A stretch of 40,967 nt of DNA from positions 1-40,967 of IMG/VR virus record IMGVR_UViG_3300036768_000812, one strand, 5' to 3'. Origin of the DNA: a virus. The notes below the pieces were generated by a model. It was not told the origin of the DNA, did no database searches, and saw only the letters and a program-made list of their open reading frames with translations. Positions 23,001 to 40,967 of this stretch are shown here, in pieces; positions within the stretch are counted from its first letter, which is position 1, and the number at the start of each line of letters is the position of its first letter. The translations under genes were made by a program, and so were the position numbers.

Positions 23001-24164
23001 GCTAGTAGTGCAGTAATAGAAGAAATTACTAGTGAAAATAATTCTGTTGTTCGTATTAATGGTAAAGCTTCAAAAATATTAAGTGTTAAAACTATAAATA
23101 ATCCAAATATAGATTATTTTGCCGGTGGCTCTTTAGAATTAGATTACAGTGGAGCTATAACTGAAAACGTTATAAGTTTAAATATTGGATCCACTAAAGT
23201 TTCAAATGATATTTTACAGGTAATAAGTGTTAAAATAGTAAATGATCTTTCTGAAACAGATTATTTTGATGGTGGATCAATTGATAAAGATAAAAGAACA
23301 ATATATCTATCAAAACCGTTACCATCAAGTCCATTAAATCTCAAAGTTACTTATAAAACAATAAAATCTAATTTGAATATAATTAATAATCAAATTATTA
23401 AATTAGGTAGAAGATTACCAAATCATAAAACTAAGGTATTAGTAACTTACATTCCTAAAGGATTACAAGGAGATAGGATATCTATTTTTAAAGATAAATC
23501 TGGTTACATTAATTTCAATGTTCACGCTTCTAATATAGATTATTTAGTACGAGCGCCTATTTATTGGGAAAAGAATTCTTGGCATAGAATAAAAGCGAGT
23601 TATAAGTTTAATGGTAATAAAAATTCTGATGAAATTAGATTGTTTATAGATGGATATGAGAGAGGAAATGTATTGTTTGGCACCAATTTCTTATTTGGAC
23701 AGCCGCACGTATATGGTTCTTCGTTTGCCGGTAATACTAATATCATTAGATCAATTAAATTCAAAGATAATATAAATACTTTATTTATAGGATCTCAATT
23801 TACAAAAGAATCAGCTGCATTTTGTTTAATTGATAATTTAAGAATAAGCAATATTTCTCGTCCAATTTATGCTCCATATGGAGAACCATTAGATATAAAT
23901 TATAATAAAAATATAAATGTAGTTTTGCCTGTAACAGAAGACCTGTATACAACTTATTTGATGAATTTTGAAACATTATTATCTAAAAATGAAGATTTTA
24001 TTCTATTAAAAAATAAAAAATCTGGAATATTTGATTTTTCTGTAAATATTTTTGATTCATTTGGTATAATTAATAATAACAGTAAAATAAAAGCAATATT
24101 GGAAACCTTAATTAAGGCTCTTAAGCCTGCAAATAGCAGGGTTTCCATCAAATATATAAAATAA
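17031..24164 (+). CDS. Giant baseplate/tail protein with two LamG-like domains
   Basis: This 2377-residue protein directly follows gpJ with a TAATG overlap. Its N-terminus resembles a wedge-attachment region (MENIRILTLQVTSSTLIIAT, then PMEPDNVVKEFLTNYLRN and a helix IQALSLILSKALYAIRQL). Residues ~200-1000 are beta modules, including one IIRQSDGYELWDN module (~830-883). Residues ~1019-1333 form a LamG/concanavalin-like domain (SFETWLIPEWDG, HHIAISWKL, MHLFIDGFEVPN). A second is at ~1937-2290 (TIEFWISPIHD, WHRIKASYKF, EIRLFIDGYERGN, CLIDNLRISN). Three copies of a ~70-residue module with the pattern DGY...G..L.I...Y.I...L.I lie between them. The C-terminal ~80 residues form an alpha/beta piece ending KALKPANSRVSIKYIK. 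LamG domains usually bind carbohydrates, so a role in surface adhesion is inferred. Confidence 0.82.
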   Translation: MENIRILTLQVTSSTLIIATFTHNLDPNIDSSNVVILADSIHVPDPQILQVKISSNEMRITTQPLTPFASYFITFKSSNILFKSINGDALLIEDGVTNKHFFLGPMEPDNVVKEFLTNYLRNNIYNLDDNTTIVSSTIQALSLILSKALYAIRQLKNENYLSFTVNDELKTRSAGPFDRLNEEGAYKVLRVGRTPSGTKANKEKSHNIFPFYPVTLKSVSTTEVLFPDSEDKIGKFNINKLVLNLSKNPITKVNNIVFNLSFGPNLTYTYSIEKLGYRIHSSKYDQEFGFSYDILDTNQILLNETILSDSNFSLNNITSVQVSYEYKNNGIIIDASSINVSTVLVSSREVIPPIVNVFHLNHAPIVNSSGDIVKTGGITFIDTNNSIDHTHKAFLYEIPFTLSGIPSRPGEYSVDYSTGTVYVYGADSLNDGTGPFPPVVTYNYKHFYENEIDYVYDEEEDEGDLVALPNGSLINNAGTVRFSYEEVLIPGQDYEANVHKEELSERIENRLLALNILRTKKAPITNVFRIYNETSGEIYGITRWDDNKIYFKYKNAPRVLTAKRERANFANQINEILFVNTSTSHLVGKIFKILLKNNNIIAQTEDSLGSSINTSIRFSNLNVFVNEKWFNREETISENTNRLTQFGDYCIDYLNGVIYCYVSNVQNIEIGSVSYKYKKISPNNSHVITVNDIYYQFNENVPKNKTFSYSSFDEGEIIPKTIDFSDEISKYNELLYPYQIKDSEIGIFTTSGFIPGVTDSIKFVRSIYEFDSLKNDINPINFVLGATFSGNTINVYPINNIEYEFVQHDGTHYFVNIPEKFNYLSPNININISIIRQSDGYELWDNFGTIVPGNPVKLILSGINSPSVGDAVLVNYTFNINNLSRVVVDYNKGDYFIDYNYLADEIVVSYEYGDNVLDFRAGNSLNFGDNYYVSYKVGALRDALLKNFGTLIDIEHLNTFDIDLDRERYRDALMAALESFIQGPTISAIKNIGDKISHIEPEVIESIFQNWSLGNSLLNPRSIETKGKFSILPAHHGNGVLINNVEQQITFPLNSNLKFESGSFETWLIPEWDGIDNNSELIFSVLRDGYIMKSNKIFIGALEYHPEYNDGSFKLTKFSNVFGTPNTNKDGLYIYYDKDISGKFNRWYVKVVDGYTDGYIYGPANYVINIKSNGVFYDTKSIASTMPSNMKTITGINSLTIKINGGDPISQGITFICDKEHYILDFGEEVAKNRLSLFKDPSGYFNFRVYDKFKNPYYISADVSSWKAHEKHHIAISWKLNTKNSRDEMHLFIDGFEVPNIIKYGNKLSPYLHEKYRTINPEQIIGVANKDIVGSNDLVTVQGSNIVTSSINFGSFNISIGDTIFIEEPGFSNTGYTIILINGNHLTLNVPMPISMSAAKFSINKQQFVVTSEIDIYPNIAVSTISKLFEASDLIVTDGYNTVTAITNFITQGVEPGYLIVIDHQSFPSVYTILNVSNHSLVINTTSTISASGLSYRIYPNKEVEIPGVRALKPAYNISKDGYFNNIITLLNTVKSKDLLTIKTLGLNFRKIKKRYYVWGDNVENIIMTRLPPPISLDEADITRIIIPSSLVGPSNSTLLSGIFYSNNIIGAKTSNSQSGRTLSVNIAGTNIDFSIPVEVKITGQVGFYTLTETVLFNEAGTKFTTNKFLSVDYINVKCKPIYTSKNCLTIEVKEKYRITKPENSAHAPVVRYAYQMRAGSHLQSAGYDVVKDGYQVFSSLDVGNHLVIHSPPSVAGFYKIKGISSDFHSLTIVPTIPSFSLPLPSFTGGTYEILNTTEHRTGLQNGFFTFEQDLLVGEPYLLEKGWYEFNYNTYLICKIDPIMKDAFIGSDFNGNNHIDAIINELKITSNMMTDTRIGESVGENERSITKDFNSLKELKKDINTLMLVSFDSYPFINMADFYINYEDKPYVQADVSVNDKFSKSVYITDKPIILQNSGILDTKKDGTIEFWISPIHDTANDPHVRFYFDASSAVIEEITSENNSVVRINGKASKILSVKTINNPNIDYFAGGSLELDYSGAITENVISLNIGSTKVSNDILQVISVKIVNDLSETDYFDGGSIDKDKRTIYLSKPLPSSPLNLKVTYKTIKSNLNIINNQIIKLGRRLPNHKTKVLVTYIPKGLQGDRISIFKDKSGYINFNVHASNIDYLVRAPIYWEKNSWHRIKASYKFNGNKNSDEIRLFIDGYERGNVLFGTNFLFGQPHVYGSSFAGNTNIIRSIKFKDNINTLFIGSQFTKESAAFCLIDNLRISNISRPIYAPYGEPLDINYNKNINVVLPVTEDLYTTYLMNFETLLSKNEDFILLKNKKSGIFDFSVNIFDSFGIINNNSKIKAILETLIKALKPANSRVSIKYIK
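19516..19683 (+). repeat. Shared tail module B, copy 3
   Basis: This region encodes residues about 830-883 of the 2377-residue protein (ISIIRQSDGYELWDN, GINSPSVGDAVLVNYTFN). It is very similar in layout to copy 1 of the J-like protein, including the NSP..G..VLV block. Confidence 0.7.
24100..24147 (+). repeat. Composite hairpin near the end of the 2377-residue gene
   Basis: The arms TGGAAACC (24100-24107) and GGTTTCCA (24140-24147) form an 8-bp outer stem. It encloses an AGGCT/AGCCT hairpin with CTTA loop (24115-24128) and an alternative CCTGC/GCAGG pairing with an AAATA loop (24126-24140). It lies in coding sequence just before the stop at 24164. Confidence 0.4.
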
Positions 24165-24206: not shown

Positions 24207-27200
24207 ATGACAAAAAAAGAGCCAATTTCAGGTATACAAAATATATGGTTTGATTCAGAACAGGTTGATGATTCTGATTTAAAAACAGAACAGGAATATA
24301 ATAATTCCATTCAATCTGGATTGATAAATAACCATATAGGATCTGGTGTTTTAGCAGAAACTGTAACAACAAATATTATATTTGATTCTTTATTACATTC
24401 TGGATTACTAGATGGAACTAATGTACAGCCACAAAATCAACCAACAGATACAACTTTAGGTAACCAATTAGAGGTCGAGCTAACTGAATCTAAAGTTACA
24501 TCAAAACGCACAGTTAAAGTATGTATCATAGGATTAGATTTTCAAGGTAATTTACAATATGAAAGATTTGAATTTAAAGTAAATGAAAAACAAAATGGAA
24601 CAAAACATTTTGTTAAAGTATTATTGATTTTATTTAATGATTTTATTGGAGTTGAAACAACATCATTTAATTTGGGTGGAAGAATTGTAATTAGAGAGTC
24701 AAATCCGTTTTCTCTTTCAAGGAATGCTATTATGGCTTCACAAGATGTGATGCCGAACTTATTTTTTAGAGATTTTTTTACAACAACAACTTTGTCATTA
24801 AATCTATTATTAAATTCAGCTCTACCATTATATAATGTAAACAATTTAAATATTACTACAATTGAAAAAACAAATTATGCCTTATTAAAAGGTGATGTTA
24901 GTTCTCAGATTGGTCAAAAGTTTTTAGCAACAACTAACAATATTCAAAAAATTAGTTTGTTATTATCAGTTAAAAATAGTGAACCAGGATCAGAATCGGA
25001 TTTAGCTTGGCAAGGAGATATAATTATTAGTGTTTATCCTTTACAAACAGCAATAGACTGCCCTACTGATATTGTTCCTGATTTGCTAATTGATTTTTCA
25101 CCATCAAATATTCCTTTAGCTCAAATAAGTGAAAATTATAATTCTTTATTGGCTAGAGGTATAGTGCTTGATTCAGTTCCACAGCCTGTTGATTTTATTT
25201 TTAGTAATTCCTCATTATCAGGAGGAAATGTTATTGTTCCAGGTTCATATTATGCTGTTACTATAAAAAGATCTGGGTCAGCTAATAAGTGTGATATTTT
25301 AGTTTCTGCCGGCAATAGTTTGGGATCTAATGCTAGAGTTACACTGTTTAATGGAAGTGTGTGGACAGATATTGTAGAAGATGATTTATGGTATAGAATT
25401 TGGACTGATTCTGCTAAAGTATCTGACGGACAAGCATATGAGACAGGAAAAGGGTTAGTTATTCCAAAAACTAAATTAAATGAATCATCTGGTGTAGTTG
25501 AAGATTATGTATTAAAAGATCTTTCGTTTGTTGGTAATGATATATTTAGAGCAGCTTTATTTTCCAAAAAAGAATTAAGTGGCGCTATTCAAGATCAAAG
25601 AACTGGTAATTTAGTACAATCTAGACAACAAAATGTTCCAGATATTAAATTATTAAATTCTTTAGATTTAGCTAATTTAGATAAAACTACAGAAACGTTT
25701 CTATTTGGAGCTATATCCGATAAAAATAAAAAGAGTTTTGATAACATCAACACAAATATTGTGTCCAATATGCATTCATTTGCTATGGCAAATAATGAAC
25801 TGTTGATTAGAATTATTGATGATCCAACAGATGGATATAGATATGATACTAGTGTTACTTCACTAGTATCATATTTATTAAATGGTGACTTAGTAAATGC
25901 AAAAATTATTCCAAATATTAATAATTTAAACAATTATTTTAGAATTGGTCGTGCCGAATTATGTTCCATGATTTATGGAGATGTAAATGGTGATGGAGTT
26001 GTAGATGATAAAGATTTAGAAGAGTTAAACAAGTTATTAGGTGCAAATCTTAATCTATCTCCTCCACTTAATACTTCTATTGTTACTGATGGATATACTA
26101 CGACCGTAACTAATGGATACAATACTTTTATTGATATTTTTAAAACTGATACAGGCATTTCATTTCAAATTGTTGATCCTAATACAAATTTAGTAGTTGC
26201 ATCTGGTACAGATGGAGTTTTAGTTGCGAATCCAAATGATGGATCATTAGCACAGTTTAGTAGTGCATTAGTTACATTTGGCAATATTGTTGGATTAAGT
26301 TCATATAAATTAGTTATTTTAACTTCATCTGTACAGGCAAATAAAGGAAGTTTTACAATATCTGGCATAGATGCCATGACTGATGTTATTACAATTCATA
26401 AATTAATTTATAATTCTGAGAATTTTGGCAAAATATTTAGAGCAGATCTTGATGGAGATTTAATTATTACAAGTAATGATGGATATTTATTATCTAATTA
26501 TATAGACAAAGTTCCATTTCAGCCACATTTTACATATCCTCCACCAGCAACTAACCCTTATACCAAAATAGGAACAAGATTTAATGTAATTAAATTAATA
26601 TTGGAAAAATATGTTGATAGAACAGATGATTATACATCTGCAATAAATACTAGACATAACGATTTACATACAACACCAAATATATTTGCCACTGATGGTT
26701 ATTATGCTTCACATAATTATTTAAATCAACCTGTTACATTTTTGATTGTTAAGCAACAATATTGGGAAGATTATTTGGTTGTTGTTAATAGTAAACCACG
26801 ATTAGTTCCAACTGTATTTACTTCTAAATATGGTTTTAATAAATTTGAATGTATTTTGCCTAAAGGTGAAAAATGTGATACGTATGGATCTACATTAGAA
26901 TTTGATCCTGGTAGAATTGATGTATTCGTTCCTAATAATTTAATTTTGGGAGATGGCGGAGAATTACAAAGACCTGATGGTTACTTTTATAAAGTAGATT
27001 TTGAAGTAGGTACTATTACTTTTGAAATACCAGATGGTTTATTTGGTGCAGAACGAACAATCGATTTAATGGGCGATTTTATTGTAGATTATAATGGTCT
27101 AGGAACAACTAGATTAGGTTTTCCTGCCATGAGATTTGCTGACTGTTCTTTTGTTACTAATGATGCTTTAGCAAAAGATCAAATTAGATTTTCTGTTTCT

Positions 27201-28181
27201 GTGCAATCATTTTCTCCAAATACTAATGGATTAGATATTGATGGTTATCAAGGTGCAATAGTAGATGGTAAAATTGGAGTATCAATAGATCATCAAACTG
27301 GATTTTTAACTCTTAATTTTACAAATCTATATCAAGATAATATCTTACCAACTTTAAATACTAAAGTTCAAGTGCAAGTTTTCCTGAAGAAAGGTGGTTT
27401 TAATAATCAGACTTTGTTTGTTGATTCAACTAAAGTTAAAAATATATTAGAATTAATAAGTGTATGGAGCGGTCCAAATGTAGGAGGCGCTTCGGCTTTA
27501 GTTGATTTAAGTAATGATGTAAGTGGAATTATGCCAATTATTCATGGCGGTACTGGATTAAATCAGACTGGAGTATATGGAACTGTATTAATGAGTTCTG
27601 GAACTTCGTTAACTTATCAATTCGTCTATAATCTTCCAGGCACAATTTCATATTCTACTGGAATACCAGATGCCAATAGAGTTCCAAAAACAGATGGTTA
27701 TGGATTATTAGATCCAAGTTTTTACTATAAAAATCCAGTATATATATATGGCGTAGCTGGTATAGTATCGCATGATGGTTATACTCCTGCAACAATAGGG
27801 GCATTTACATTTAGATTTGATAAATATATTTTACAAGGAATTAAAGATATTAAACTTGAAGCTATATTGGAAACAACTAACCCTTCACATACTGCGTCAA
27901 TATTATTATTTAATTTAAATACTAACAGCTATATTCCATTAACTGGAATGTCTACAACTAGCGATGATGCCGTAGTATTAAGATCTAATGATATTAAATT
28001 ATTATTATCTTCTGGAGCTACTGATTATATTTATGAAATTCAATTAAGGCTTGATCCAACAAGTTCTATTGAGTCTGCCATTTGTAAAATGGCTCGTTTA
28101 GTCATTACTTATAATAATCCTGCTACAGCACCTCCAACATCAGCAAATAATACATACAATTTCCAACCATTCTTACCTTAA
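24207..28181 (+). CDS. Tail-fibre-like protein with split dockerin-type repeats
   Basis: This 1324-residue protein has an N-terminal attachment-like region (ISGIQNIWFDSEQVDDSDL, GLINNHIGSGVLAE), then beta domains. At residue ~591 is a textbook dockerin calcium-binding repeat (GDVNGDGVVDDKDLEELNKL), and at ~747 a second, weaker one (RADLDGDLIITSNDGYLLSN). Between them sits a ~85-residue beta module (651-734) that also occurs in the 851- and 1367-residue proteins. The distal part has a fibre-type GGTGL motif (IIHGGTGLNQTGVYG, around residue 1112) and ends in a beta-sandwich-like domain. The DGY tripeptide recurs about eight times. The last large gene of the tail cluster is the usual place for a receptor-binding protein. 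The start at 24207 has only a weak GAG upstream. A 14-bp inverted repeat lies inside the gene at 25841-25874. Confidence 0.8.
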   Translation: MTKKEPISGIQNIWFDSEQVDDSDLKTEQEYNNSIQSGLINNHIGSGVLAETVTTNIIFDSLLHSGLLDGTNVQPQNQPTDTTLGNQLEVELTESKVTSKRTVKVCIIGLDFQGNLQYERFEFKVNEKQNGTKHFVKVLLILFNDFIGVETTSFNLGGRIVIRESNPFSLSRNAIMASQDVMPNLFFRDFFTTTTLSLNLLLNSALPLYNVNNLNITTIEKTNYALLKGDVSSQIGQKFLATTNNIQKISLLLSVKNSEPGSESDLAWQGDIIISVYPLQTAIDCPTDIVPDLLIDFSPSNIPLAQISENYNSLLARGIVLDSVPQPVDFIFSNSSLSGGNVIVPGSYYAVTIKRSGSANKCDILVSAGNSLGSNARVTLFNGSVWTDIVEDDLWYRIWTDSAKVSDGQAYETGKGLVIPKTKLNESSGVVEDYVLKDLSFVGNDIFRAALFSKKELSGAIQDQRTGNLVQSRQQNVPDIKLLNSLDLANLDKTTETFLFGAISDKNKKSFDNINTNIVSNMHSFAMANNELLIRIIDDPTDGYRYDTSVTSLVSYLLNGDLVNAKIIPNINNLNNYFRIGRAELCSMIYGDVNGDGVVDDKDLEELNKLLGANLNLSPPLNTSIVTDGYTTTVTNGYNTFIDIFKTDTGISFQIVDPNTNLVVASGTDGVLVANPNDGSLAQFSSALVTFGNIVGLSSYKLVILTSSVQANKGSFTISGIDAMTDVITIHKLIYNSENFGKIFRADLDGDLIITSNDGYLLSNYIDKVPFQPHFTYPPPATNPYTKIGTRFNVIKLILEKYVDRTDDYTSAINTRHNDLHTTPNIFATDGYYASHNYLNQPVTFLIVKQQYWEDYLVVVNSKPRLVPTVFTSKYGFNKFECILPKGEKCDTYGSTLEFDPGRIDVFVPNNLILGDGGELQRPDGYFYKVDFEVGTITFEIPDGLFGAERTIDLMGDFIVDYNGLGTTRLGFPAMRFADCSFVTNDALAKDQIRFSVSVQSFSPNTNGLDIDGYQGAIVDGKIGVSIDHQTGFLTLNFTNLYQDNILPTLNTKVQVQVFLKKGGFNNQTLFVDSTKVKNILELISVWSGPNVGGASALVDLSNDVSGIMPIIHGGTGLNQTGVYGTVLMSSGTSLTYQFVYNLPGTISYSTGIPDANRVPKTDGYGLLDPSFYYKNPVYIYGVAGIVSHDGYTPATIGAFTFRFDKYILQGIKDIKLEAILETTNPSHTASILLFNLNTNSYIPLTGMSTTSDDAVVLRSNDIKLLLSSGATDYIYEIQLRLDPTSSIESAICKMARLVITYNNPATAPPTSANNTYNFQPFLP
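25841..25874. repeat. 14-bp perfect inverted repeat inside the fibre-like gene
   Basis: The arms ATATGATACTAGTG (25841-25854) and CACTAGTATCATAT (25861-25874) pair perfectly around a six-base loop (TTACTT). A G-T and an A-T pair could extend it outward. It lies in the coding sequence for YDTSVTSLVSYL, about 100 bases before the dockerin repeat. There is no T-tract after it, so it is not a classic terminator. Confidence 0.7.
26157..26412 (+). repeat. Shared tail module A, copy 3, inside a dockerin pair
   Basis: This region encodes residues about 651-734 of the fibre-like protein (FQIVDPNTNLVVASGTDGV, GLSSYKLVI, NKGSFTISGID, TIHKLIY). It lies between the two dockerin-type repeats and has near-identical DNA to the copy at 9411-9655. 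Confidence 0.75.
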
Positions 28182-30323: not shown

Positions 30324-31313
30324 ATGGATTGGAAAAGTAAATTATTATTATTTTTGTTTGGAACGTTTGTATTATGCGCTGTAACATTTATTATATATAA
30401 GCAAATAGAGATATCATCAAGACAAGAGGCTATAGAAAAACAAGTTGTTGCTCAAAAAGAGTTAGCTGATAATATAATGAGATCTATTTCTCAATATGCT
30501 ACTAAACATGATTTAGAATCGTTCGCAAAAGATTCTAATGTGAATCTTGAAGCTATTAAAAAAGACTTAGATAGTCTTAACGCTAATTTAACAGCAATTA
30601 ATCATGTTTTAGTATCAAGCAGAAATCAAGTTGTTACAGGAAGTGGTTCATCTGGAACTACACCAAATCCAAACCCAAAACCAATAGACCCTAATAATCC
30701 AGATCCTTATGGTTACACCAAAAATAGACAGGTTATTGAATTATCTGAACAATTTGATAATACTAATGTTCCAATTGGTAATGTAGGATTTAGTGCATGG
30801 CAAGAAAAACCGTGGGATTATACTATATATGCCAGACAATATAAGTTAACAACTGTTATTGGCACTGATGAGGATCAAAGACATTATGTATATAATAAAT
30901 TTACTATAAATTCTAATAATAAGGATTATGATGTCAAAATTGAACAATCTAAGACATTAGAACAATATCCAGAAGCAAAATTTAGATTTTGGAATCCTAA
31001 ATTACATATGAATGCTGGTGGTGGTGTACAAGTATCTACTGTTCCTCCTAGAGGAGATGCCTCAGCAGGTTTATCACTAGGTATAATGAGTTATGGAAAA
31101 TATCGTACATCTCCTGATTTAAGTATATTGCAGATTGGCGTTGGGTATCAATTTGATAGTCAAAGACCATATGTGTCAGTTAATCCTATAAATTATAATG
31201 TTGGTAAGCTGCTACCAGGTAATATAGCCAATAATACTTATTTGGGACCTACTGTACAGGTAAATACTGCCGGAAATGTTTTATTAGGCGCTGGTTTAAG
31301 TGTTGGTTTCTGA
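30324..31313 (+). CDS. Membrane-anchored coiled-coil protein with beta-rich C-terminal domain
   Basis: This 329-residue protein is not recognised as a family. Residues ~5-27 form one transmembrane signal anchor (KLLLFLFGTFVLCAVTFIIY), residues ~30-95 a coiled coil, and residues ~105-135 a Gly/Ser then Pro/Asn linker (GSGSSGTTPNPNPKPIDPNN). The rest is beta-rich. The end looks like paired amphipathic strands with small and aromatic residues, finishing GAGLSVGF with a terminal Phe, similar to the closing strand of outer-membrane barrels. The layout would allow an inner-membrane anchor reaching across a periplasm, for example a spanin-like or superinfection-exclusion role. This is inference. It sits between two GT2 genes. 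AAAGGA lies about 12 bases before the ATG, a long spacing. Confidence 0.75.
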   Translation: MDWKSKLLLFLFGTFVLCAVTFIIYKQIEISSRQEAIEKQVVAQKELADNIMRSISQYATKHDLESFAKDSNVNLEAIKKDLDSLNANLTAINHVLVSSRNQVVTGSGSSGTTPNPNPKPIDPNNPDPYGYTKNRQVIELSEQFDNTNVPIGNVGFSAWQEKPWDYTIYARQYKLTTVIGTDEDQRHYVYNKFTINSNNKDYDVKIEQSKTLEQYPEAKFRFWNPKLHMNAGGGVQVSTVPPRGDASAGLSLGIMSYGKYRTSPDLSILQIGVGYQFDSQRPYVSVNPINYNVGKLLPGNIANNTYLGPTVQVNTAGNVLLGAGLSVGF

Positions 31314-32189: not shown

Positions 32190-33158
32190 ATGAATAAATA
32201 TAAACTAAAATGTTTAGTTACTGGTAGTTTAGGATTTATTTTCTCTAATTTTATTAGAAAAGCATTATATGAAAAATATCCATATAATTTTATTACTTTA
32301 GATAAAGCAGTATTATCATCTTCACTAAATAATATGTACTTTAATAAAGCTTTGTCAAGTAATTATATTGCAGACATTACTGACCATCATATAATTGATC
32401 GTATATTTGAAATTGAAAAGCCTGATATTGTTATTCATGGAGCAGCTGAAACATTCGTTGATTATTCTCTATCAGATCCTAATAAATTCATTAATACAAA
32501 TGTCTTAGGAACACAAAATCTTATTAACTCTTCGTTAAAATATGGTGTGAAAAAATTTATTTATATTTCAACAGATGAAGTATATGGTCATTTATCTAAA
32601 GAATCAGATGAGTCATGGACTGAAGAATCTCCGATTAATCCAAGGAATCCTTATTCTGCTAGCAAAGCTGCAGGAGAATTATTAGTAATAGCAGCTAACA
32701 AATCGCACGGATTAATTTATAATATTACAAGATCATCAAATAATTATGGACCAAGGCAAACTCCTGAAAAGCTTATTCCTAAAGTTATAAAATGTATTAT
32801 AAATAAGCAACCAATACCCATATATGGTCAAGGCATGCAAATAAGAGATTGGACTCATGTATATGATAATTGTGCTGGTATTTTAACAGTTCTTGATAAT
32901 GGTTCACCAAATGAAATATATAATATTTCTGCTAATCAGGAATTTACTAATATTGAGGTTGTCCACAATATTTGTGAGGCTATGGGAGAAGGACATGAAT
33001 TAATTAAATTTGTAGAAGATCGTCCTGGTCATGATTTTAGATATTCTATTAATTCTAATAAAATAAAATCATTAGGGTGGAAACCACAACATAAATTTAA
33101 AGATGCTATACATGATGTTTGTGATTGGTATAGATCTAATCAGTGGTTTTTAAGATAA
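32190..33158 (+). CDS. RmlB-like nucleotide-sugar 4,6-dehydratase
   Basis: This 322-residue protein is an extended short-chain dehydrogenase most like dTDP-glucose 4,6-dehydratase. It would convert an NDP-hexose to the 4-keto-6-deoxy form, the entry step to rhamnose and other deoxysugars. Visible motifs are the NAD-binding TGSLGFIFSNF near the N-terminus, STDEVYG (the Thr-Asp-Glu catalytic set of RmlB), YSASKAAGE (catalytic YxxxK), SSNNYGPRQTPEKLIP and PIYGQGMQIRDWTHVYDN for nucleotide-sugar binding. Together with three glycosyltransferases it forms a self-contained deoxysugar cassette, although rmlA, rmlC and rmlD are not in the window. A related decarboxylase or epimerase activity cannot be excluded, but the DE pair favours a dehydratase. 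Its stop overlaps the next ATG in TAATG. Confidence 0.87.
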   Translation: MNKYKLKCLVTGSLGFIFSNFIRKALYEKYPYNFITLDKAVLSSSLNNMYFNKALSSNYIADITDHHIIDRIFEIEKPDIVIHGAAETFVDYSLSDPNKFINTNVLGTQNLINSSLKYGVKKFIYISTDEVYGHLSKESDESWTEESPINPRNPYSASKAAGELLVIAANKSHGLIYNITRSSNNYGPRQTPEKLIPKVIKCIINKQPIPIYGQGMQIRDWTHVYDNCAGILTVLDNGSPNEIYNISANQEFTNIEVVHNICEAMGEGHELIKFVEDRPGHDFRYSINSNKIKSLGWKPQHKFKDAIHDVCDWYRSNQWFLR

Positions 33159-34735
33159 TGCATCAGAACGAACTATTAGATATAAAAAATAATTTTATTA
33201 AAAAATATTTTAATATAGCACCAACTATGGTTGTTTCTGTTGGTAGAAACAAAAATGGAAATTATATATTAGAAGTACGAACTAATGAAAAAAAAGTTGT
33301 TGATATATTACCTAAAAAATTTTGTGATCTTGATATAAATATTGTATTTTACAATCAAAGTAATAAGGAGTCAAATATGCCTGCAAAATCAATTACAGAA
33401 GAAGATAAAGTTGAAGAACTCGATGATGATGTTACTGAAAAAGATGTATCACCTACTTTAGATCAAAGTAAATTGGCTGCGTTGAAAGCTAAAAGTCAGG
33501 CAAAGCAGCAGGAACAAAATATGGCATCTAAAATAGTGGCAAAAAAAGAGAGAAGTTTGGCATTAGGAATTGTTGGTTCTGGTCAGGCAGGGTCAAGATT
33601 AGCCGAGGCATTTTATAAATTAGGATATGACTGTATTGCAATAAATACTGCAATGCAAGATTTAAAACATATTAATATTCCAGATTCAAATAAACTATTA
33701 TTAGAAGGAACTTTGGGTGGTGCGGCGAAAACATTATCAATTGGACACGATGCTGCAGAATCTCATAGATCTGAAATATTACAATTGGTTGATAATAAAT
33801 TAGGTCATACACAAGTTTATGTATTTTGCACAAGTTTGGGTGGAGGATCTGGTGCAGGTTCTACTGAAGTTATGATTGATATTCTTTCATTAACAGGTAA
33901 GCCTACAATTGTTATTGCTGCGCTTCCAATGGAAAATGAAGATGCTCAAACAAAATCAAATGCGCTTGAAACATTGTCAAAATTAGCCAAATTCGTGCAA
34001 TCTAAAAAGATACACAATCTAATAATTGTAGATAACGCAAAAATTGAAAGCATTTATAGTAATGTTAGTCAATTGGATTTTTTTGATGTAGCAAATAAGG
34101 CAATTGTTGAACCAATTGATGTATTCAATACATTATCATCATCGCCATCTTCAGTTAAAGCTATAGACAATGCAGAATTTGCTAAATTATTAATTGATGG
34201 CGAAGGTTTAACTGTTTATGGATCTATGCTTGTTCCTAATTTTACTGAAGATACTGCTATTGCTGAAGCAATTATTAACAATCTTGACGGAAATTTATTG
34301 GCTTCAGGTTTTGATTTAAAACAATGTAAGTATGTTGGTGCGATGATTGTTGCTAATAAAAATACTTGGGCTAAAATTCCAAGCGTTGCAGTTAATTATG
34401 GAATGGAATTAATTCAAGATCGTTGTGGTCAACCATTAGGTATTTTTAAAGGTATATATTCTATTGATGAAATGGCTGATAATGAAGTAAAAGTATATAC
34501 TATGATTTCTGGTTTAGGTTTACCAACTTCTAGAGTAGAAGAACTTAAAAAGTCTGCACAACAATTAATAGGATCTGCTAAAGTAAAAGATGAAGTGCGA
34601 ACTTCTAAACTAACTATAGATACTGGAATTACCGATTCTTCTTCCGCAGCGCAAAAAATTAAAGAAAAAATTGCTCAAAAATCTTCGGCATTTGGTAAAT
34701 TAATGAGCGGCAGTGTTGTTGATAGAAGAAAGTAA
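33158..34735 (+). CDS. Tubulin/FtsZ-family GTPase with extra N-terminal domain
   Basis: This 525-residue protein is a tubulin-superfamily GTPase that should form filaments. The GTPase core holds GIVGSGQAGSRLAEAF (T1, residue ~137), LEGTLGGAAKTL (T3-like), CTSLGGGSGAGSTE (tubulin signature, T4, ~228) and AIDNAEFAKLLI (T7 loop, ~335), where the Asp and Glu could supply the catalytic acids for the next subunit. A Lys/Arg-rich tail follows (SAAQKIKEKIAQ, ending VVDRRK). The first ~73 residues form a small alpha/beta-like domain (IAPTMVVSVGRNKNGNYILE), followed by an acidic then Gln/Lys-rich linker. The ATG at 33158 is in a TAATG overlap with the dehydratase; GTG 33143 would add five residues inside that gene. 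An in-frame ATG at 33377 has the best ribosome binding site seen here. Possible roles by analogy with PhuZ and TubZ are DNA positioning or segregation. Confidence 0.85.
   Translation: MHQNELLDIKNNFIKKYFNIAPTMVVSVGRNKNGNYILEVRTNEKKVVDILPKKFCDLDINIVFYNQSNKESNMPAKSITEEDKVEELDDDVTEKDVSPTLDQSKLAALKAKSQAKQQEQNMASKIVAKKERSLALGIVGSGQAGSRLAEAFYKLGYDCIAINTAMQDLKHINIPDSNKLLLEGTLGGAAKTLSIGHDAAESHRSEILQLVDNKLGHTQVYVFCTSLGGGSGAGSTEVMIDILSLTGKPTIVIAALPMENEDAQTKSNALETLSKLAKFVQSKKIHNLIIVDNAKIESIYSNVSQLDFFDVANKAIVEPIDVFNTLSSSPSSVKAIDNAEFAKLLIDGEGLTVYGSMLVPNFTEDTAIAEAIINNLDGNLLASGFDLKQCKYVGAMIVANKNTWAKIPSVAVNYGMELIQDRCGQPLGIFKGIYSIDEMADNEVKVYTMISGLGLPTSRVEELKKSAQQLIGSAKVKDEVRTSKLTIDTGITDSSSAAQKIKEKIAQKSSAFGKLMSGSVVDRRK
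33365..33379 (+). promoter_or_regulatory. Strong internal ribosome binding site and start in tubulin gene
   Basis: AAGGAG at 33365-33370 lies 6 bases before an in-frame ATG at 33377 (protein MPAKSITEED...). It is the best Shine-Dalgarno match found by eye in the window. The upstream ATG at 33158 has none and depends on stop/start overlap. Either the real start is 33377 or two forms are made, with and without the 73-residue N-terminal domain. Confidence 0.55.
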
Positions 34736-34762
34736 ACATTTTAATGTGTTATATATTATTCT

Positions 34763-36262
34763 GTGACTAAAATTATCATTAAGGGAAATTATTCTCAGAT
34801 TGTTGGTGAAAACGATTTGGAGCATTTATTGGCTCTAGATAAACACCTATCTTTCTTTGTATTGGGCGCTGAATATACTGCAGCTTATCGTGGATTTATT
34901 AATGATAAAGGTGAATATGTAAAATGGGATGGGTTTAAAAAACTATTAAATCCTTCTGGTATTTTTTGCACAGGTCTATTAAATAGAGTTATGTCATTTT
35001 ATAATGACAATAATAAGACGTTTGAATTAATAGATGCAAGACCTCCAAAATCAATTGGTACTCCTATAAATATTTTGGAAAAATTAAAAAAACTAAATAA
35101 AGAGCCTTATCCTTATCAATTAGATGTTTTAAATGTTATTGATAAATATGATCGTGGTATTATAAAGATGGCAACTGGGGCTGGAAAATCTTTAGTTGCA
35201 GCTCTTATAACTGCCAAATTAGGTAAAAAGACTATAATATATGTTATAGGAAAAGATCTATTATACCAATTTTATAATTTCTTTTCTGAAGTATTTGATG
35301 AGGAAATAGGAATTATTGGAGATGGACAATGTATAATAAAAAATATTAATATTGTAAGTATATGGACAGCAGGTCAGGCGCTTGGTATTAATAAGAAAAA
35401 TATTTTGTTAGATTCTGATTTTGATGAAAAAGAGACGTCTCATACTAAGTATGATTCAATTAAAAAATTGCTTAAAGACGCTAAAGTTCATATAATTGAT
35501 GAATGTCATATGGCTGCATGTGAAACTATTCAGCAAATATATAAAAATACTAATGCTGAACATTTATATGGTCTTAGTGGATCGCCTTGGAGAGATGATG
35601 GACAAGATTTACTAATAGAATCTATATTAGGTAATTATATAGTAAATATCTCTGCATCATATTTAATAAAAAATCAATTTTTGGCACAACCTATTATATT
35701 ATTTAGAGCTGTACCACCATACCCTTATGAATTAAATAAAGTTTATCAAAGTGTATATAGAAAATATATTGTTGAGAATTATGAGAGGAATAAAATTATT
35801 TTAGAAGCCGCTCAAACAATGATAAAAAAGGGATATCAGACACTAGTCTTATTTAATAGTTTAAAACATGGTAAAATTTTATATAAATTATTATCAAAAC
35901 ATTTAAATTGTGTATTATTAGATGGATCTAATGATCAGGAAACAAGAAATAAAGTTAAACAAGATCTTTTAGATAATAAAATAGATTGTATTATAGCATC
36001 TAGGATATATGATATTGGTGTAGATATTCCTAGTTTATCAGGATTAATTGTTGCGTGCGGTGGCAAATCAAGCGTTAAAGCTTTACAAAGAGTTGGGCGT
36101 GTAATACGAAAATATAAAGATAAAAAATTTGCAGTAATAATTGATTTTATAGATCAGGCACCTTTCTTATTTGAACATTCAAAGACACGATATAGAATAT
36201 ATAGATCAGAAGATGGATTTGATGTTAAAATACCTAAATCCATTAAATGGAAAAAGAAATAA
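34763..36262 (+). CDS. SF2 helicase, UvsW-like
   Basis: This 499-residue protein is a superfamily 2 DNA helicase like T4 UvsW, which processes stalled forks and recombination intermediates. An N-terminal ~100-residue substrate-binding region precedes the Q-type entry EPYPYQLDVLNVIDKYDRG. Then come Walker A MATGAGKSL (~136), motif II DECHMA (~246), motif III GLSGSPWRDD, motif IV LVLFNSLKHGKIL, motif V ASRIYDIGVDIPSLSGLIVA and motif VI QRVGRVIR (~441). Length matches UvsW. The start is a GTG at 34763, since an in-frame stop lies at 34742 and no ATG fits. No Shine-Dalgarno sequence is seen. It lies 27 bases after the tubulin gene and upstream of the helicase-loader block. Confidence 0.88.
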   Translation: MTKIIIKGNYSQIVGENDLEHLLALDKHLSFFVLGAEYTAAYRGFINDKGEYVKWDGFKKLLNPSGIFCTGLLNRVMSFYNDNNKTFELIDARPPKSIGTPINILEKLKKLNKEPYPYQLDVLNVIDKYDRGIIKMATGAGKSLVAALITAKLGKKTIIYVIGKDLLYQFYNFFSEVFDEEIGIIGDGQCIIKNINIVSIWTAGQALGINKKNILLDSDFDEKETSHTKYDSIKKLLKDAKVHIIDECHMAACETIQQIYKNTNAEHLYGLSGSPWRDDGQDLLIESILGNYIVNISASYLIKNQFLAQPIILFRAVPPYPYELNKVYQSVYRKYIVENYERNKIILEAAQTMIKKGYQTLVLFNSLKHGKILYKLLSKHLNCVLLDGSNDQETRNKVKQDLLDNKIDCIIASRIYDIGVDIPSLSGLIVACGGKSSVKALQRVGRVIRKYKDKKFAVIIDFIDQAPFLFEHSKTRYRIYRSEDGFDVKIPKSIKWKKK

Positions 36263-36969: not shown

Positions 36970-37406
36970 TACCGAATGTAAAAGATTTTGTAGTGTTAAT
37001 TTTTAAAAATTCTATAAGAGTAGAAGGATTTGTTAATTTTTGGTCAGAAAAAAAAATAATTCTAGAATCGCGTAATAAAGATTGTTTTATTGTTATTAAT
37101 GATCTTTCAGAAGTTTTAGCTTATAAGATAATAAAAGATATACAGAAACAAGATCAAAATAATAAATCTGAAAAAGCAGAATCTATTAGACAAGCATTGT
37201 ATAATGATTACGATACACAAAGCTATATGAAAGATAAAAATATTCATAGAAATGAAGATGGATCGTTAGATATAAAAAGTTTAGCTGAACTTAGAAAAAT
37301 GGAAGCCGAATCTGAGAGACAAATTATAATTAATAAATTAAAAAATCATAGAATAAGCGGAATACAATCGGTAAAATATGATACACCAAGATTTTTTAAG
37401 AAGTAA
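36966..37406 (+). CDS. Small protein with possible Sm-like N-terminal fold
   Basis: In this 146-residue protein, residues 1-55 read as a five-stranded small barrel: VKDFVVLIFKN, RVEGFVNFWSEKKIILES, CFIVINDLSEVLAYKI. A Gly before a long bent strand and a closing strand after an Asp-rich turn are the pattern seen in Sm/LSm/Hfq and other SH3-like barrels. The rest is charged helix (EKAESIRQALYNDYDTQSYM) ending in a basic tail. If the fold is right, it could bind nucleic acid or act as an adaptor for the loader. GGAAG lies 6 bases upstream of the ATG, which is in an ATGA overlap with the preceding gene. The next gene starts 29 bases before its stop. Confidence 0.72.
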   Translation: MIPNVKDFVVLIFKNSIRVEGFVNFWSEKKIILESRNKDCFIVINDLSEVLAYKIIKDIQKQDQNNKSEKAESIRQALYNDYDTQSYMKDKNIHRNEDGSLDIKSLAELRKMEAESERQIIINKLKNHRISGIQSVKYDTPRFFKK

Positions 37407-38079
37407 ATCTTTAAACTGTATACCATATAAAAAAATAGATGAAAAATTAAAATCTATAGATCTTTTGCAAGAGCCTGTAGATGTTAAAAATTTAAAAATC
37501 ATAGCTTATAATCGTTATGCAGAAAGCAATATCCCAATAGAGTATTGGGATCTTAAGATGGATAAAGATTTTATTGGAGATTCCCGTTTATTAGATAAAT
37601 ATAAAGATTTAGTATCAGATATAAAAGGTCATTATGTTTTAGGAACATCCATATGTTTTGCCGGTAATCATGGTACAGGTAAAACTATGTCAACTACAAA
37701 TATATTAAAAAAGGCTTGTCAGAAAGGATATTCTTGTCTTTATACCACTTTAAGTGATATTGTAAATGTATTAACTCAAGCACCATCTGAAGAAAAATAT
37801 TTGGCTAGGAGAGAATTATGTATGGTGGATTTTTTAGTAATTGATGAGTTTGATTCACGCTTTATGCATAATGAAAATGCATCTGATTTATATGCTAGAC
37901 ATTTAGAGAATATTTTTAGAACTAGAAGTCAAAATAAACTTCCAACATTTATGTGCACCAATTCCCCTAATATATTAGAAATGTTTTCTGGTCCTATGAA
38001 ACAAAGTATTGAGAGCCTTATAAAAGGATATATGAAGATATTTATTGTCTTAGGTGAAGATATAAGGAAAAGAAAATGA
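37378..38079 (+). CDS. DnaC/IstB-like AAA+ helicase loader
   Basis: This 233-residue AAA+ ATPase is of the DnaC/DnaI/IstB type, which loads the replicative helicase on DNA. It has an N-terminal ~60 residues with YNRYAESNIPIEYWDLKM, typical of loaders just before the ATPase. Walker A is GNHGTGKT (~96), Walker B is FLVIDEFDS (~152) and the sensor-1 strand is PTFMCTNSP, followed by a C-terminal basic lid (LGEDIRKRK). A loader function is supported by the DnaB-like helicase gene just downstream. The ATG at 37378 overlaps the preceding gene by 29 bases and has only weak GG(T) upstream. A later ATG at 37558 would remove the conserved YW segment and is less likely. Confidence 0.85.
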   Translation: MIHQDFLRSKSLNCIPYKKIDEKLKSIDLLQEPVDVKNLKIIAYNRYAESNIPIEYWDLKMDKDFIGDSRLLDKYKDLVSDIKGHYVLGTSICFAGNHGTGKTMSTTNILKKACQKGYSCLYTTLSDIVNVLTQAPSEEKYLARRELCMVDFLVIDEFDSRFMHNENASDLYARHLENIFRTRSQNKLPTFMCTNSPNILEMFSGPMKQSIESLIKGYMKIFIVLGEDIRKRK

Positions 38080-38296: not shown

Positions 38297-39703
38297 ATGA
38301 ATTATTCTAACTTAGATTTATCTATACTTAAAGCTATTATTACAAATAAAAAATATGCACTTGATTTTGTATCAGAATGTGATCCTAAATTATTTTCAAA
38401 TGACATTTGGATATTTGCAAATATTGTATGTAATTATATAAAATTTCATAAGGAGCTTCCTACTTTACGTACATTAACAGAAAATTTAGGAAAAAATAAT
38501 AATGATCATCTTATTCAAACAATTAATAAATTTTGGAATGAAGTTTATAATTTTAAATACAATATTAATGAGTTTTCTTTTGATTTAATAAAATTAAAAA
38601 AACGTTTCGCTGAAAATCAAATAATCAAACTAAAAGATTCTATATCTAAGTTAGATCCGGAAAAAATAGATATTAATAAGAATGTTTTGGATCTACAAAA
38701 AACAATTCAATCTATTAAATCATTAGATCAAAAAAGACTTTATGATCGTAAAACTTTAAAAGACGCGATTGATATATTTAAAGAAGAATATAAACAAAAA
38801 CAACAAAATCCTAATTTTGATCAAGGTATATTAACTGGATATTCTTATTTAGATTATACTACTGATGGATTACGTCCAGGAGAATTATTATTAATTGGCG
38901 GTGAATCTGGTGGTGGTAAATCTATGTTATTAATGAATATGGCTATCCAAATGTGGATGCAAAATAATACGTTAAATATTGAATCTAATTTTTATCCAGG
39001 TTATGATGTTTTATATTTTTCTCTTGAAATGCCATTTAAACCGTGTTTCAATAGAATTCTAGGAAGATTATCTTCTATACCTACAAAAAAAATAAGAAAC
39101 GCCAAATTGAATGGTGAAGATGTTGAAAAACTTAAAAAGGCAATTAAATTCATTAAAAATTATCCAAATCAATTTGAAATTATAGATATTCCTCGTGGTG
39201 CTACGATGGAAAGTATAGAGCTTTTATATGAAGATGCAAAAGTTCATTTTAATCCAAAAATAGTTGTTATTGATTATTTGGGATTAATGGAATATAGCGA
39301 TACATCAATGGATGATTGGTTGAAACTTGGTAAGATTGCAGAGAAAATGCATGAATTTGCTAGAGTACACGGATTAGTAGTCTTAAGTGCTGTACAATTG
39401 AATAAAGCAAAACCAGGAAAAGATGCTGAAGAAAAGATTGGTTTGCATAGGATTGGACGCTCTGCACTAATTATGCAAAATGCAAATATTGCAATTCAAA
39501 TTGAAACGAGAGCCAATGAAAAAAATTATCCAGATATGTTTTATCATCTAATTAAAAATAGAGATGGAGAAATTGGACGAGGAAGAATAATAAAAAATTT
39601 AGCTTCTGGAACACTTATAGATGATCCTATTAAAATTGATGAATCTTATGATATTAAAGATATAGATGATATATCAGAACAAGTAGAATTATTAGATATT
39701 TAA
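38297..39703 (+). CDS. dnaB: DnaB-like replicative helicase (SF4)
   Basis: This 468-residue protein is a hexameric replicative helicase of the DnaB/T4 gp41 type, which unwinds the fork 5'-3'. Residues 1-~120 form the helical N-terminal domain (LDLSILKAIITNKKYALDF). The RecA-like C-terminal domain has ILTGYSYLDYTTDGLRPGEL, Walker A GGESGGGKS (~201), VLYFSLEMP, Walker B IVVIDYLGLM (~322), LSAVQLNK (motif H3) and DMFYHLIKNRDGEIGRG (H4 and the Arg finger region). Length is usual for the family. GGTG lies about 6 bases before the ATG. It follows the DnaC-like loader after a 217-base spacer. The gp41 role is assigned by homology and context; the symbol is by family. Confidence 0.9.
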   Translation: MNYSNLDLSILKAIITNKKYALDFVSECDPKLFSNDIWIFANIVCNYIKFHKELPTLRTLTENLGKNNNDHLIQTINKFWNEVYNFKYNINEFSFDLIKLKKRFAENQIIKLKDSISKLDPEKIDINKNVLDLQKTIQSIKSLDQKRLYDRKTLKDAIDIFKEEYKQKQQNPNFDQGILTGYSYLDYTTDGLRPGELLLIGGESGGGKSMLLMNMAIQMWMQNNTLNIESNFYPGYDVLYFSLEMPFKPCFNRILGRLSSIPTKKIRNAKLNGEDVEKLKKAIKFIKNYPNQFEIIDIPRGATMESIELLYEDAKVHFNPKIVVIDYLGLMEYSDTSMDDWLKLGKIAEKMHEFARVHGLVVLSAVQLNKAKPGKDAEEKIGLHRIGRSALIMQNANIAIQIETRANEKNYPDMFYHLIKNRDGEIGRGRIIKNLASGTLIDDPIKIDESYDIKDIDDISEQVELLDI

Positions 39704-39913: not shown

Positions 39914-39917
39914 TTAT
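39897..39917. repeat. Near-palindrome at the 3' end of the LRV gene
   Basis: The 10-base arms ATAATTGTAA (39897-39906) and TTACAATTAT (39908-39917) are separated by one base and are perfectly complementary. It overlaps the LRV stop codon (39914-39916). It may help end transcription of the minus-strand gene or bind a dimeric protein. A/T content is high, so its significance is modest. Confidence 0.4.
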
Positions 39918-40967
39918 CTTACATAAGAACTTTCATCTTTATCTAATTGTTTTAAAACTTCAGGTGGAGTATTAGGATTTTTAGCTACTGCTCTTCTTAC
40001 CAAACTACTTTTATCGTTAGCTAATTGCGCTAAAACTTCAGGTGGTGTATTAGGATTGCTAGCTATATTTTCTCTTACATAATCATATTCATCTTTAGCT
40101 AATTGCGCTAAAATTTCAGGTGGAGTATTAGTATTTTTAGCGACCGATTCCCTTATATAAGCATATTTATCTTTAGCTAACTGCGCTAAACTTCCAGGTG
40201 GAGTATTAGAATTTGCTGCCACTATTTTTCTTATATAAAAATATTCATCTTTAGCTAATTGTGCTAAAATTTCAGGTGTAACATTAGGATGTTTAGCTAC
40301 ATATTCTCTTATATAAGCATATTTATCTTTAGCTAATTGCTCTAAAAGTTCAGGTGGTGTATTAGGATTTTTAGTTACCTCTTCCCTTACATAATTATGT
40401 GTATCTTTAGATAATTGTGCTAAAATTTCATGTGGTGTGTTAGTATTTTGAGCTACTAATATTCTTACACTATAGTTTTCATCTTTAGCTAATTGAGCCA
40501 ATATTTCATATGGAGTATTAGGATTTTCAGCTATGAGATTAATAACTACTTTCCCAACTTCCTCATCTTGCTTTTTCGCCCATATAAATGCCTCTTTTAT
40601 TTCTTCTGAACTAGTCTCATTAGATTTTATTTTAGCTAATAAACTCTTAGGTGCTGATGCAGCTTTACTTCTTGTGATACTCAATATATTGTCTGACTCT
40701 TCACCAAGAATCTTCTTTAAATCACTAACGTCTATCTGATCATCAGAAGCATCAAATATTGACAAACCAATAATATTATTATTAATATCTCTCTGATAAA
40801 CTAACGCTATTTTGCTTTCTGGACTTCTTGGTATGGCTTTTAAATTTATAATAAATAGAAATACTATATTAGATTTATCATAATCTTCAAAATATGCTTC
40901 ATCTTTCATGGAGATACACCATTTTGTATCAAGACCATGATGTACACTTGCAGCCTTATTCTTAATC
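39914..40967 (-). CDS. LRV-repeat protein, 5'-partial, unknown function
   Basis: On the minus strand, the ATG at 40907-40909 (331 residues) is probably internal: the frame stays open to the window edge, reading SVHHGLDTKWCIS just upstream, and the sequence continues as one domain (KWCIS, EAYFEDYDKSNIVFLFIINL, KIALVYQRDINNN, LSIFDASDDQID). That W-C/beta pattern before repeats is seen in some phage proteins of unknown function. The C-terminal ~205 residues hold eight 26-residue repeats of the leucine-rich-variant type (NPNTPPEVLAQLAKD...VR..VAK), which stack as a curved helical solenoid and usually bind protein. The last repeat stops at SSYVR, so the array ends abruptly. It is the only convincing minus-strand gene here and the product is not identified. 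Confidence 0.8.
   Translation of the reverse strand, partial: IKNKAASVHHGLDTKWCISMKDEAYFEDYDKSNIVFLFIINLKAIPRSPESKIALVYQRDINNNIIGLSIFDASDDQIDVSDLKKILGEESDNILSITRSKAASAPKSLLAKIKSNETSSEEIKEAFIWAKKQDEEVGKVVINLIAENPNTPYEILAQLAKDENYSVRILVAQNTNTPHEILAQLSKDTHNYVREEVTKNPNTPPELLEQLAKDKYAYIREYVAKHPNVTPEILAQLAKDEYFYIRKIVAANSNTPPGSLAQLAKDKYAYIRESVAKNTNTPPEILAQLAKDEYDYVRENIASNPNTPPEVLAQLANDKSSLVRRAVAKNPNTPPEVLKQLDKDESSYVR
39917..40526 (-). repeat. Eight tandem 78-bp coding repeats (LRV type)
   Basis: There are seven full units of 78 bases and one partial (63 bases), inside the minus-strand gene. Each encodes a N-x-N-x-x-P...L..L..D.....[VI]R...[AV]. pattern, with the most conserved part around NPNTPPE. 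The repeats differ at many synonymous and non-synonymous positions, so the array looks older than a recent expansion. Confidence 0.85.

Follow-up and report, generated by a model that had tools for sequence, protein, structure and literature searches.

The window analyzed here, the whole of IMG/VR virus record IMGVR_UViG_3300036768_000812 (40,967 bases), encodes a TubZ-like tubulin, most likely of 452 amino acids and starting at position 33377. In lytic infection by a phage that builds no nucleus, this protein probably holds replicating phage DNA, or particles, in position or moves them. The tubulin is a filament-type protein from very large phages that form an uncultivated group. Homology, fold, conservation of the start and genome context were observed here, and polymerization, cargo and timing are inferred.

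Tubulins occur in phages in two known settings: PhuZ centers the phage nucleus, and TubZ shares out plasmid-like prophages. On the tests run here, the present family fits neither. Reviews recognize two groups of phage tubulins, TubZ of phage C-st and PhuZ (PMC7950403), and tubulin homologs in huge metagenomic phages have already been reported in general terms (PMC7162821).

Identification of the tubulin family

Single-protein scans of viral contigs with the window tubulin and with its neighbor UvsW gave no matches. When the DnaB protein of the window was used as the probe, 12 relative contigs were found, and each of those whose DNA extends that far carries a syntenic tubulin with about 59-66% identity. 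A ten-member family alignment was then searched against viral contigs, giving 104 places, 80 of them kept, and 61 distinct complete tubulin proteins were extracted. Translation starts were analyzed at the 58 loci whose match extends to residue 1 of the 452-amino acid form, and conservation in an alignment of 48 rows, including 47 relatives. The relatives show 51-75% identity, the longest contig spans 480,838 bases, and each of the 17 large records carries exactly one copy of the gene. No relative was found when bacterial and archaeal genome contigs were scanned with the tubulin, so that these give no hint of the host.

The start of the tubulin gene

From ATG 33158 to 34735 the frame is open for 525 codons with no internal stop, and an earlier note, made from the sequence by itself, had described a tubulin/FtsZ-family GTPase with about 73 extra N-terminal residues. 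These residues are probably not part of the tubulin, because in the relatives translation begins at the counterpart of Met74, where a strong Shine-Dalgarno sequence is conserved. The relevant features of the window are as follows.

33377 to 34735, plus strand: tubulin gene as re-called, a TubZ-like GTPase of 452 amino acids (supported by the start of relatives at the equivalent Met, the Shine-Dalgarno sequence and Pfam)
33365 to 33370, plus strand: Shine-Dalgarno sequence AAGGAG of the tubulin start, 6 nucleotides upstream of ATG 33377

In most of the first relatives, homology begins at residues 69-74 of the 525-amino acid protein; these relatives have a Met at, or a few codons from, the equivalent of residue 74, and an in-frame stop shortly upstream. 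Across the 58 loci, the frame remains open upstream of the start for at most 22 codons (median 6), and a Shine-Dalgarno-like motif precedes the start in 55. In the alignment of 48 rows, every row has 10 or fewer residues ahead of the Met74 column, and a counterpart of residues 1-73 is absent from all 47 aligned relatives. A protein found by fold, A0A6J5RW92 (UniProt, uncultured Caudovirales phage), is 62% identical and likewise exactly 452 amino acids long. The gene was re-called as 33377-34735 on the strength of the starts in relatives, the Shine-Dalgarno sequence at 33365 and the length of A0A6J5RW92. No Shine-Dalgarno sequence precedes ATG 33158, which proves little, given that many genes of the window have no obvious one. 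Most likely, then, the tubulin starts at Met74 (33377), and residues 1-73 are the product of a distinct small gene that lies in frame with it.

The small open reading frame upstream of the tubulin

Two features define this region.

33158 to 33376, plus strand: small open reading frame of 73 codons that shares the frame of the tubulin and lacks its own stop (codon usage, predicted fold)
33361 to 33366, plus strand: TAATAA, two stops in tandem, in the -1 frame relative to the small open reading frame and just ahead of the tubulin ribosome site (read from the sequence)

The 73 codons are probably coding. Codon usage of 33158-33376 fits this phage in this frame only and is coding-like along most of the length, and the ATG and the preceding gene's stop overlap (TAATG). 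The predicted fold is a compact helix-strand-strand-helix-strand arrangement, with pLDDT mostly about 80-88, followed by disorder over residues 67-100. No homologs were found in Pfam, in annotated phages, at the loci of the relatives or in the 17 large records; a fold match to a free-standing protein of 67 amino acids from an uncultured phage, A0A6J5RTM5 (E = 0.03, probability 1.00), is moderate evidence. In other members, varied, unrelated small genes or homing endonucleases occupy the slot that follows the sugar dehydratase and precedes the tubulin, including a 91-amino acid gene in the closest relative (L019); in one large phage (L009), a separate open reading frame of 68 amino acids is found there. 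Comparison of the latter with the small open reading frame of the window is no more than suggestive of kinship, with shuffling p values of 0.006 (local) and 0.07 (global) and a BLAST result that is not significant.

The TAATAA lies where the end of a gene would be expected; tandem stops within 30 nucleotides in one given other frame have a chance of about 6%. A frameshifted neighbor, an assembly indel or a fusion specific to this window would explain the missing stop, and a length change of one base would fit. Residues 1-73 would represent a separate small gene whose stop was lost, either from the phage itself or during assembly, so that it continues into the tubulin frame; small amounts of a longer, fused protein could be produced. 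A missing stop between neighboring small genes can mimic a new domain.

It is unlikely, in our assessment, that the fusion is real and the small domain belongs to the tubulin in this phage, whether always or only in an additional, longer product that begins at ATG 33158 and accompanies the 452-amino acid form; it would then hang from the filaments on a disordered linker and recruit a partner, along the lines of the earlier note. The small open reading frame does share the frame of the tubulin, the two are not separated by a stop, and its codon usage is gene-like over most of its length, so that a fused product is physically possible, which counts against a separate gene; the model gives it a folded domain of its own and a flexible stretch, and the TAATG coupling with the upstream gene could drive translation. 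However, the domain is present in no relative, the internal start with its strong Shine-Dalgarno sequence is retained, the tandem stop lies one frame off exactly at the expected gene end, and other members, L019 among them, fill the slot with different separate genes. The N-terminal tether domain proposed in the earlier note is therefore unsupported for the family, and a separate small gene ahead of a tubulin starting at Met74 is the reading adopted below.

Domain architecture, conserved motifs and fold

The 525-codon frame contains the motifs GSGQAGSRL, CTSLGGGSGAGS and AIDNAEF. Pfam models for Tubulin (E = 2.6e-15) and TubZ-like_C (E = 1.1e-7) match the 525-amino acid protein past their cut-offs; with the 452-amino acid form, the values are 8.3e-16 for PF00091 and 9.5e-8 for PF22453 (TubZ-like_C), and both models are matched by 10 of 10 members tested. 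The following features were delineated (residues in the numbering of the 525-amino acid frame).

33377 to 33556, plus strand: family-specific N-terminal extension, residues 74-133, acidic and then a predicted helix
33575 to 33598, plus strand: T1/G1 nucleotide loop GSGQAGSR
33827 to 33862, plus strand: T4 signature CTSLGGGSGAGS, with residues 226-232, 234 and 235 invariant in 48 sequences
34160 to 34180, plus strand: T7 loop AIDNAEF with D337 and E340, both invariant in 48 sequences
34646 to 34732, plus strand: conserved basic C-terminal tail, a helix followed by FGKL...VVDRRK, with a mean majority-residue fraction of 0.76

The glycines of the T1 and T4 loops are also invariant in the 48 sequences. 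The N-terminal extension has an alignment occupancy of 93-97% across the 47 relatives, and its first 29 residues carry a median net charge of -5 in relatives; what had been taken for an acidic/Gln-Lys linker to an added domain is this conserved extension of the tubulin itself. At the other end of the protein, the last 30 residues have a net charge of +5 to +11 in relatives. In TubZ, the basic C-terminal tail is required for assembly and contacts TubR-tubC (PMC7762940; PMC5322520).

Prediction from the single sequence was poor, and a model built from the 48 sequences was used instead (mean pLDDT 79.8, above 90 in much of the core). The best fold matches in the PDB are to TubZ (2XKA, E = 1e-25), whose chains make up the top 22, followed by CetZ and FtsZ; PhuZ is absent from the top 50. 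By sequence, too, the best solved relative is plasmid TubZ/RepX.

Relationship to other tubulins

In the phylogenetic tree, the family forms a single clade (support 96/96), apart from the clades of PhuZ (100/100) and FtsZ (99/98). Plasmid TubZ sequences are spread over more than one group, the nearest being Cetobacterium TubZ (84/81), on a long branch; long branches leave us unsure of the exact relation of the family to plasmid TubZ. Together, motifs, Pfam matches, fold and phylogeny bear out the assignment to the tubulin/FtsZ family made in the earlier note, which had proposed both the structural and the phylogenetic comparison.

With TubZ (Bacillus plasmids, 2XKA and 4EI7; phage C-st), the family shares the fold, the GTPase motifs, the TubZ-like C-terminal domain, the long C-terminal helix and the basic tail. 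It differs in its identity of about 20%, its own clade and the extra conserved acidic/helical N-terminus, and has neither a recognized TubR partner nor centromere repeats here. Among annotated phages, the sole match is gp138 of Bacillus phage G ("putative FtsZ-like"; 23% identity, E = 1e-15), and a few plasmid TubZ proteins match as well. Phage G is a jumbo phage too, but gp138 groups with TubZ of Bacillaceae plasmids and has a small gene directly upstream. A0A6J5RW92, which belongs to the family itself, is known as a database entry ("FtsZ Cell division GTPase"); no study of it was found in the literature searched.

A phage FtsZ-like protein might act as a decoy in host division, co-assembling with host FtsZ or blocking it. 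The NCBIfam FtsZ equivalog TIGR00065 does match weakly (E = 4.8e-21), at 75.5 bits against a cut-off of 295.2, whereas the C-terminal domain is of the TubZ type, not the FtsZ type, in all members tested, and the family branches outside FtsZ, which makes such a role very unlikely.

Gene neighborhood and the search for a partition system

Four genes accompany the tubulin in the window.

32190 to 33158, plus strand: nucleotide-sugar epimerase/dehydratase (RmlB-like), upstream neighbor; intein-bearing homologs match dTDP-glucose 4,6-dehydratase
34763 to 36262, plus strand: UvsW-type helicase, downstream neighbor
37378 to 38079, plus strand: DnaC-like helicase loader (phrog_50, 6.5e-18)
38297 to 39703, plus strand: DnaB-like replicative helicase (Pfam, 2.8e-30)

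Pfam and PHROG matches confirm UvsW, the loader and DnaB as neighbors, as had been noted earlier. Most members share the order sugar dehydratase, tubulin, UvsW, and then loader and DnaB, in some cases interspersed with small genes; at 50 loci, the gene immediately preceding the tubulin is the dehydratase, and varied small genes are found there elsewhere. GIY-YIG-like homing endonuclease genes directly adjoin the tubulin in several members (L031, L046, L053, L054, L056 and L073).

A TubRZ-type partition system, in which the phage would persist in a plasmid-like or pseudolysogenic state and the tubulin would segregate it through a TubR adaptor on a centromere, is suggested by the fold and the C-terminal domain, both closest to TubZ, and by phage C-st, which employs TubZ in this manner (PMC7950403). 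We nevertheless hold it to be improbable. No recognizable TubR-like or helix-turn-helix gene was found directly upstream of the tubulin in the window or at the loci of the relatives, most of which have the dehydratase there; a distant TubR could lie elsewhere in the genome. No direct-repeat family or iteron-like centromere repeats occur at 32800-35000 of the window, and three relatives have only two-copy, chance-like repeats near the tubulin. Neither a tyrosine integrase nor ParA was found in the 17 large records.

Phage-nucleus genes

A spindle of the PhuZ type, which centers the phage nucleus and delivers capsids, would agree with the presence of a tubulin in a jumbo phage that has a contractile-tail baseplate gene. 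PhuZ of phiKZ-like phages is likewise a tubulin of jumbo phages, and the window protein weakly matches PHROG 4733. PhuZ, however, is shorter, forms its separate clade, matches the predicted fold poorly and is accompanied by a nuclear shell and a multisubunit RNA polymerase. Profiles for the shell protein (chimallin) and for the polymerase (PF00562) matched 0 of the 17 large records of relatives, and both were found in the chimallin-phage controls Noxifer and Haymo; the shell profile missed one of the three jumbo-phage controls, Aphrodite1, and PF00562 matched all three, two of them over the cut-off. A search for the T4-type capsid (PF07068) was uninformative, with no match anywhere, controls included. 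The records are uncultivated and possibly incomplete, so each absence is weak alone, and the seventeen together are more telling. We regard a PhuZ-type spindle as the remotest of the roles considered; of the two phage tubulins with which the earlier note had compared the protein, TubZ is the closer, and searches of the large relatives turned up no genes of the phage nucleus.

Inteins in the replication cassette

Two relatives (L080:2357-5134 and L081:2450-5269) contain a full in-frame intein with a LAGLIDADG endonuclease inside the tubulin, matched by Pfam and NCBIfam intein models past their cut-offs. The insertion site, GSGQAG^S, lies in the T1 GTP-binding loop, between the equivalents of G145 and S146, and the intein ends in HN before Ser. 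The literature searched contained no previous description of a tubulin with an intein. Long in-frame intein-like inserts also interrupt the sugar dehydratase (L048:1875-3971 and L093:1680-3764) and UvsW (L092:5493-8171 and L095:5999-8767); the one in UvsW is placed at the Walker A lysine, and its final HN is followed by Thr. The replication cassette of this clade seems to be rich in inteins.

Proposed function

Family membership and the intact catalytic residues make GTP-driven filament formation very likely. GTP would be bound in the T1-T4 pocket, and subunits would stack head to tail, the T7 acidic residues of one completing the GTPase site of the next; the resulting filament would treadmill in the manner of TubZ. 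The conserved basic C-terminal tail and the acidic/helical N-terminus may bind cargo or regulators, and, when a huge phage without a nucleus infects lytically, the filament would keep replicating phage DNA, or particles, in position or move them. The genome context leads us to favor, with moderate assurance, a lytic role unconnected with a nucleus.

More tentatively, the family could represent a third kind of phage tubulin system, found in huge phages that neither build a nucleus nor live as plasmid prophages: a conserved TubZ-like filament encoded in a lytic replication module, with N- and C-terminal cargo tails of its own and, in some members, a GTP pocket formed only after intein splicing. 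If the tubulin is conserved, outside both known settings, in phages of up to 481 kb, filament-based organization of phage DNA would be more general than nucleus formation, and the question of why very large phage genomes need a cytoskeleton would become testable.

Other genes of the window

A 329-amino acid protein encoded a few genes upstream of the tubulin (30324-31313 in the window), and in that position across the clade, likely has an N-terminal membrane anchor. Three very large proteins of 1626, 2377 and 1324 amino acids (908-5788, 17031-24164 and 24207-28181), with no PHROG match, flank the baseplate genes. At the end of the window, on the minus strand, 39914-40909 encodes an LRV (leucine-rich-repeat-variant) protein (Pfam, E = 2e-43).
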